Below are positions 34,155 through 35,401 of a stretch of 35,401 nucleotides of DNA, one piece after another (position 1 is the stretch's first letter; each line of letters opens with the position of its first letter). Origin of the DNA: Desulfurobacteriaceae bacterium. GTDB lineage: Bacteria > Aquificota > Aquificia > Desulfurobacteriales > Desulfurobacteriaceae. A model generated the notes under the pieces. That model did no database searches, was not told the origin of the DNA, and worked only from the letters and a program-made list of their open reading frames with translations. The DNA is taken from positions 1 through 35,401 of the forward strand of contig JAMOTD010000016.1 in assembly GCA_027068415.1 (NCBI GenBank), read 5' to 3'. The position numbers were made by a program, and so were the translations under genes.

Positions 34155-34958
34155 ATGCTCCACAACCCCTTCCTCTACCTCTCCTACGGCTTCGGCGTTA
34201 AGGCGTTAATCTCGGCAGTTTTAACGGGTTTAACCTGCTCGGCTGTTGGCTCTTACGTGGTTCTCAGGAAGATGAGCTTTGCCGGAGCAGGCCTTGCCCA
34301 CGTTGCCCTTGCAGGGGTTGCCTTTGGAATCTTCCTGGGGGTTAACCCTACTCTTACCGCTCTCTTTTTTACCCTTTTGGCTTCTCTCTTAATCTGGTTC
34401 TTCCAGCTCAGAAGGGGGCTTCACTTTGATGCAACTATGGGAGCTCTCTTTGCAACGAGCGTTGCTTTGGCCGTAGTATTCTTAAGCCTTTCGGGGGCTT
34501 ACGGCTCTTCTGCGCTTGCCTACCTCTTCGGCAGCCCTTTAAGTGCTACTAACACCGATATTATTCTTCTCGGGATTACTGCCGCCGTAGTCTTCCTCTT
34601 CTACCTCTTCTTCTGGAGGGAGATTTACCTGATTACATTCAGTCAGGAGATAGCGAAGGCTTCGGGCTACAAGGTTGAGGTTATTACATTTTTGATGAGC
34701 CTTCTTATCGCTTTGGTTATAACCTTTTCCCTAAAGGCGGTGGGAGCTCTCCTGGTCTTTTCCCTTCTGGTTATGCCCGCGGCCTCAGCCTTTCGCCTTG
34801 CAAAGGGCTACTTTAACTTCTTCGCCCTTACAGTCCTTTTCGGCTTCCTCTCAAGTTTTATCGGGATTCTCGTCTCCTTCGCCCTTGACGCTCCCTCGGG
34901 AGCAACGATTACTCTCGTCTCCTTCCTGATTTTTCTCCTTGCCGCTCTTCTTGACTGA
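34155..34958 (+). CDS. ABC-3 family metal-ion transporter permease (ZnuB-like)
   Basis: 267 residues with about eight or nine membrane helices. ABC-3 permeases carry zinc, manganese or iron across the inner membrane with an ATPase and a metal-binding protein. Visible: VLRKMSFAGAGLAHVALAGVAFG near the N-terminus, the conserved S-x-x-AxxHxxLxG block of ZnuB/MntB-type permeases, and KAVGALLVFSLLVMPAASAF, the coupling-loop region. The metal cannot be told from sequence. The ATP-binding and solute-binding genes are not in the window, so this is an incomplete set here. The ATG at 34155 directly follows the phoU stop; its last codons overlap the CRISPR-side promoter. Confidence 0.9.
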   Translation: MLHNPFLYLSYGFGVKALISAVLTGLTCSAVGSYVVLRKMSFAGAGLAHVALAGVAFGIFLGVNPTLTALFFTLLASLLIWFFQLRRGLHFDATMGALFATSVALAVVFLSLSGAYGSSALAYLFGSPLSATNTDIILLGITAAVVFLFYLFFWREIYLITFSQEIAKASGYKVEVITFLMSLLIALVITFSLKAVGALLVFSLLVMPAASAFRLAKGYFNFFALTVLFGFLSSFIGILVSFALDAPSGATITLVSFLIFLLAALLD

Positions 34959-34978
34959 TAGATTATTTTGGCTATAAT
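34951..34978 (+). promoter_or_regulatory. Strong promoter reading into the CRISPR leader
   Basis: TTGACT (34951-34956) and a perfect TATAAT (34973-34978) are 16 bases apart. The -35 overlaps the stop codon of the ABC permease gene. No reading frame follows on the plus strand before the array, so the array is the likely transcript. Confidence 0.65.
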
Positions 34979-35130
34979 TAATAGAAAGGTCTTTAACAGT
35001 AGAATAGGAAATTAGGCTATTCTAACAATTGTCTACCTCAGGGCTATTGCCCCACAAAGCTTTAAGCTGTTTATTACGATTTAGCCTAAAAGTAATACCC
35101 TTGATTTACAAGGGTTTCAGAAAAGGTGCG
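34979..35130 (+). other. CRISPR leader with three inverted repeats
   Basis: This 152-base noncoding stretch separates the promoter from the first CRISPR repeat. It holds TAGAATAG/CTATTCTA (35000-35007 and 35017-35024, 9-base loop), GGGC/GCCC (35041-35044 and 35049-35052, 4-base loop) and ACCCTTG/CAAGGGT (35097-35103 and 35109-35115, 5-base loop), the last ending 15 bases before the first repeat. AT-rich, leader-like. The inverted repeats may be protein-binding sites used in transcription or spacer acquisition. Confidence 0.55.
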
Positions 35131-35310
35131 GTTGAAATGCCCGAAAAAATGAGCGGGATTGCGACTCGCCCTGGAAGGGGCGGGATTGCCCGATAAAGAG
35201 TTTCTTGTTGAAATGCCCGAAAAAATGAGCGGGATTGCGACCTTTCTAACTTCTTCTTCATCATGCTACACCTCCTCTTGTTGAAATGCCCGAAAAAATG
35301 AGCGGGATTG
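35131..35310 (+). CRISPR. Three-repeat CRISPR array, two spacers
   Basis: Repeats lie at 35131-35165, 35207-35241 and 35280-35310. Each starts GTTGAAATGCCCG and contains ATGAGCGGGATTG; the first two are identical over 35 bases and end in ATTGCGAC, while the third keeps 31 bases and loses the final CGAC. The repeat can form a CCCG/CGGG stem. Spacers are 41 bases (35166-35206) and 38 bases (35242-35279). A degenerate last repeat and a promoter plus leader on the left both indicate plus-strand transcription. The final eight bases, ATTGCGAC, match the crRNA 5' handle of type III-associated Thermus repeats, so a type III (or I-B) system is likely; no cas gene is visible. Confidence 0.92.
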
Positions 35311-35339
35311 TGGTTTGGTGAAGGAGAGGTTTTATTCCT

Positions 35340-35401
35340 TTAGCTGAGGAGCTTTAGGAGCTCCCTCGCGTCTTCAAAGGCCTCGCCTAAGGTGTTGTTG
35401 A
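35340..35401 (-). CDS. C-terminal end of an unidentified gene
   Basis: On the minus strand the last 19 codons of an open frame are visible, ending in TAA at 35342-35340: NNTLGEAFEDARELLKLLS. It is a helical, charged tail with codon use like the host housekeeping genes and includes one GGAGCTCC octamer. Too short to identify. It points toward the CRISPR array, ending 30 bases from the last repeat. Confidence 0.55.
   Translation of the reverse strand, partial: NNTLGEAFEDARELLKLLS

Follow-up and report, generated by a model that had tools for sequence, protein, structure and literature searches.

Type III systems whose RT-Cas1 acquires spacers from RNA, as in Marinomonas and Fusicatenibacter, are expected to carry transcript-linked spacers. 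An antisense orientation of spacers is known type III biology. In the RT-free type III interference of Thermus, strand bias has been established to arise by selection of protective spacers (PMC7515739), and antisense bias is general across type III systems (PMC8482600). A term search of the text of PMC7515739 returned neither start codons nor ribosomes. Here we analyze a CRISPR array, probably of type III, in which one of the two spacers is antisense to what reads as a ribosome-binding site (RBS) and start codon. The array lies in a stretch of 35,401 nucleotides (the window), contig C16 of a 1.595-Mb genome of a Desulfurobacteriaceae bacterium. In a genome of the same genus (G002), a 76,561-base contig matches the Thermovibrio ammonificans HB-1 plasmid pTHEAM01 without a difference across the 9.5 kb that were compared, which places the host in the deep-sea vent genus Thermovibrio.

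Results

Structure and direction of the array

The array comprises three 35-nt repeats and two spacers and spans positions 35131-35314 of the window. It has the following features, given together with those to its left:

34951..34978, + strand: promoter-like site TTGACT-16-TATAAT at the left end of the leader (consensus scan, 11/12 matches; seven-leader alignment)
34985..35130, + strand: conserved CRISPR leader of about 145-150 nt (alignment of seven leaders, most columns invariant)
35131..35165, + strand: repeat 1, 35 nt, 3' end ATTGCGAC
35166..35206, + strand: spacer 1, 41 nt
35207..35241, + strand: repeat 2
35242..35279, + strand: spacer 2, 38 nt; its reverse complement holds AGGAGG-N6-ATG and then an open frame, M-M-K-K-K-L-E
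35280..35314, + strand: last repeat, with a degenerate 3' end (GTGGT) that marks the leader-distal end

The full reverse complement of spacer 2 (35242-35279) is AAGAGGAGGTGTAGCATGATGAAGAAGAAGTTAGAAAG. The RBS and start codon that the initial annotation had read in it are exact (AAG-AGGAGG-TGTAGC-ATGATGAAGAAGAAGTTAGAAAG), and the coordinates given there are correct too. The 35.4-kb window has AGGAGG-N6-ATG in this exact form at no more than four sites, spacer 2 included; of the other three, two coincide with or adjoin ORF starts in the list (20680, +; 23812, -), and the remaining one is directed off the contig end. A 10-mer, GCGGGATTGC, is common to spacer 1 (35166-35206) and the repeat.

The leader of about 150 nt, which lies on the left side of the array in the window, is common to seven arrays with the same repeat in the genome. 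Together with the promoter-like site and the degenerate right-hand repeat, it places the 5' end of the array at the left, in agreement with the left-to-right reading proposed initially, and the crRNA thus corresponds to the + strand. It follows that the crRNA would be antisense to an mRNA reading AGGAGG-TGTAGC-ATG, in the orientation ascribed to it, antisense to a translation start. The last 127 bases of the window (35275-35401) are shared with the end of contig C8, whose sequence further downstream has no repeats. This overlap, with the assembly break just past the array, indicates that the array is complete.

Effector and adaptation genes

The initial annotation had linked the antisense orientation to type III systems, and the genome does encode RT-free type III-A (Csm) loci. 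Type III RAMP proteins are found at three loci, on contigs C9, C17 and C18. Profile searches detected two Cas10/Csm1 proteins (TIGR02578; E-values 1.2e-176 on C17 and 3.3e-78 on C9), and Csm3, Csm4 and Csm5 (TIGR02582, TIGR01903, TIGR01899) as well as a Cas6 on C18 (TIGR01877) scored above cut-off. No Cas10 gene was seen in the ORF list of the C18 stretch that holds the Csm3/Csm5/Cas6 locus. The same repeat is found in arrays close to the C17 and C18 Csm loci and beside Cas1-Cas2 on C11, and its 3' end, ATTGCGAC, forms an 8-nt handle close to the ATTGAAAC given in PMC8482600. From the repeat, the neighbourhood and the strand we infer that the array is used by a Csm complex. A separate type I-B-like locus was recognized on C22 from reading the ORFs.

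The Cas1 adjoining the C11 array is a stand-alone protein of 301 aa. Acquisition from RNA through RT-Cas1 was rejected, since no match to the reverse transcriptase domain (RVT_1/PF00078) was found fused to or near Cas1 or elsewhere in the genome. Beside this Cas1 and the array, on the minus strand of C11 (3007-3624), lies a gene for a 205-aa protein with two tandem Cas2 domains, which looks like a single-chain Cas2 dimer.

The genome also encodes cyclic-oligoadenylate effectors, namely SAVED-Lon and two CARF proteins. On C17 (243-3093, minus strand), an array and a Csm locus are separated by the genes of a SAVED-Lon protease (termed CRISPR-Lon in PADLOC) and an Unk_02-family protein and by a sigma-factor-like ORF; this cassette resembles the CalpL-CalpT-CalpS signalling cassette, with profile matches for the first two genes only. 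On C18 (428-2390, minus strand), genes for a CARF-PDDEXK and a CARF-transmembrane effector adjoin the Csm3/Csm5/Cas6 locus.

Targets of spacer 2 and of sibling spacers

The initial annotation had considered either a mobile-element gene or a host gene as the target of spacer 2. The host gene was not borne out: the bacterium's own genome, 99.98% complete, holds no second copy of the spacer at up to 3 mismatches. Neither public phages and plasmids nor, with a degenerate pattern, the contigs of IMG/VR and GTDB yielded a protospacer. IMG/VR contigs carrying the 16-mer GAGGAGGTGTAGCATG were rejected, the leader being all that they share with spacer 2. A weak 20-nt match in G120, with no leader in common, was rejected too. 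The 22 family genomes contain the leader of spacer 2, AGGAGGTGTAGNATG, at just three sites, two of which are CRISPR spacers, each in a different genus; it is therefore not a usual host leader. The absence of a match, together with a leader nearly absent from these genomes, makes a not-yet-sequenced mobile element the most likely target, as judged from the sequences.

Sibling spacers from G004 have four solid protospacers in pTHEAM01 (82-90% identity, E-values 2e-8 to 1e-5 from local BLAST, valid for the fetched loci only), and all four are antisense to the gene matched. One reaches from 32 nt upstream of THEAM_RS09290 through the first 6 nt (2 codons) of the gene and includes AAGGAGGTGGAAG-ATG, an annotated RBS and start; the other three lie within gene bodies. 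Three of the four fall in one block of the plasmid, where most genes are preceded by a near-identical GGAGGTGGAANATG leader, present in 12 copies on pTHEAM01. A block at 67-76.5 kb of the plasmid (minus strand) includes ssb and a Rad52-like gene, and most of its genes carry the near-identical leader AGGAGGTGGAAGATG. Searches of IMG/VR for relatives of pTHEAM01 proteins returned nothing, or distant ATPases only, and G017 spacers had no protospacers in the 15 relatives searched.

Start-covering spacers across the repeat family

Looking at other arrays for the same start-site bias, as had been suggested with the original observation, revealed that the pattern is present. The sample, drawn from 18 genomes, consisted of about 65 arrays that belong to this repeat family and hold 344 unique spacers, including the window's two, and the motif scored was AGGAG-like followed by 3-9 nt and ATG, counts of which are proxies for gene starts. 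The motif is found antisense in 25 spacers (7.3%) and sense in 2 (binomial p 2.8e-6). Dinucleotide shuffles of the 344 spacers gave 3.4 +/- 1.9 with the motif (about 1%) and reversed spacer sequences gave 2, against the 25 observed, and a composition artefact was thus rejected. With G017 left out the excess is weaker, at 15 antisense and 2 sense in 265 spacers. At least one of the 25, spacer 2 of L112, is probably in-gene sequence.

Type I-B spacers from the same and related genomes served as a DNA-targeting control. With both orientations summed, the motif is present in 4 of 207, and in 3 of 195 after duplicate removal (Fisher p 0.002 against the type III family). This control set is limited in size and draws in part on other families of the class; its arrays may in some cases have been oriented wrongly, with no effect on the summed count. 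If mRNA strands were sampled evenly, with ORFs called mechanically, the motif would be expected at a rate of 1.0% in host loci and 2.3% in pTHEAM01; most parts of three phages would yield 1.4-3.3%, and two small gene blocks 4.3% and 5.7%. The observed 7.3% is about 2- to 5-fold over the whole-element values (p 5.6e-5 against 3%).

GGAGGTG-N4-6-ATG has a density of about 0.8/kb in spacers versus 0.02/kb in host loci. The Shine-Dalgarno positions are spread along the whole spacer and are not centred. Four G017 spacers span the start of genes that seem to form a single family (M-K-M-L-Y), and spacers recurrently overlap also in sequences without a visible start. A preference for terminators or hairpins was rejected: stems of at least 7 bp occur in 4.4% of the type III spacers and 3.4% of the type I spacers, too similar to claim a difference.

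Discussion

We favour, with a probability of roughly 60%, the reading that spacer 2 represents ordinary immunity by an RT-free type III-A system and that the start excess comes mainly from the architecture of the targets. As we infer its target gene, the use of the array by Csm and the interference, the spacer 2 crRNA would pair with a mobile-element mRNA across its RBS and start codon, and this pairing would activate Csm-Cas10, leading to cleavage of the target RNA, to Cas10 activities and to the action of cyclic-oligoadenylate effectors. The target elements would have short genes with near-identical GGAGGTG(N4-6)ATG leaders; if only those spacers persist that pair with mRNA, sampling of such start-rich elements would raise the share of spacers that cover starts. 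Antisense sampling of short-gene, stereotyped-leader elements probably accounts for part or all of the start positions, and the fact that the Shine-Dalgarno motif is evenly distributed within the spacers fits the sampling of start-rich blocks. Since the nulls from pTHEAM01 and most phage parts (1.4-3.3%) stay below the observed rate and 4-6% is reached in two small blocks only, architecture may not explain the whole excess.

We keep a true preference for gene starts as well, with target architecture the more likely of the two. Such a preference could act at acquisition, on single-stranded coding DNA exposed close to the promoter-proximal gene end, or at retention, the RBS being accessible and costly to mutate and guides on it protecting best. 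It is suggested by a rate above both the whole-element nulls and the type I-B control, by the four G017 spacers on the start of an apparent single gene family, and by the RT-free III-A system of S. thermophilus, whose spacers, according to a review (PMC9048733), are enriched about 10-50 bp past start codons. Yet the motif is not centred, as expected from even sampling of a start-rich block, small gene blocks alone reach 4-6%, and the recurrent overlaps extend to sequences without a visible start; we consider this preference rather unlikely. Coincidence at the level of the single spacer is possible, if not what we would bet on: about 1 in 14 family spacers covers a start (25/344), spacer 2 would be nothing special among them, and for this spacer alone such a view is compatible with the favoured one, but it leaves the family-wide excess unexplained. 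A fortuitous motif, with the true protospacer off gene starts or on the opposite strand, would agree with the absence of a spacer 2 protospacer from the databases searched and with the few motifs seen in the non-functional orientation (2/344) and in shuffles (3.4/344); the perfect AGGAGG, the 6-nt spacing, the open frame and the recurrence of the leader in a spacer of another genus make it improbable. Regulation of a host gene by a crRNA covering its start has in its favour the position over a start and nothing more, and is scarcely credible given a nearly complete genome without a second match and a leader nearly absent from the chromosomes of the family.

The start position of spacer 2 alone is no proof of a special mechanism. 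Spacer 2 itself is ordinary; the set of spacers to which it belongs provides a direct, testable start-site excess in RT-free type III, and pTHEAM01 is a sequenced example of this type of target. The set could help to separate three commonly confounded causes, namely acquisition preference, selection for effective guides and the architecture of target genes. It is unlikely, in our estimation, that type III-A arrays of Desulfurobacteriaceae prefer guides on the RBS and start codon; if they did, the shared leaders of one element would form a target class that is hard to escape, and one guide would both trigger Cas10 and block translation initiation.

Unlike the RT-Cas1 systems, the Thermovibrio genome has no RT domain found in it, and the Cas1 beside its array stands alone. 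The phage-selected spacers of Thermus thermophilus (PMC7515739) likewise belong to RT-free type III interference and those kept pair with transcripts; small early genes are the hot region there, and a strand and early-region bias through selection is reported. In S. thermophilus III-A, as reported in the review PMC9048733, spacers are enriched at the 5' ends of genes on the coding strand without an RT, as here, and were acquired from host genes at about 10-50 bp downstream of the start. In the Desulfurobacteriaceae arrays, in contrast, long-retained spacers span the RBS and the start codon itself.
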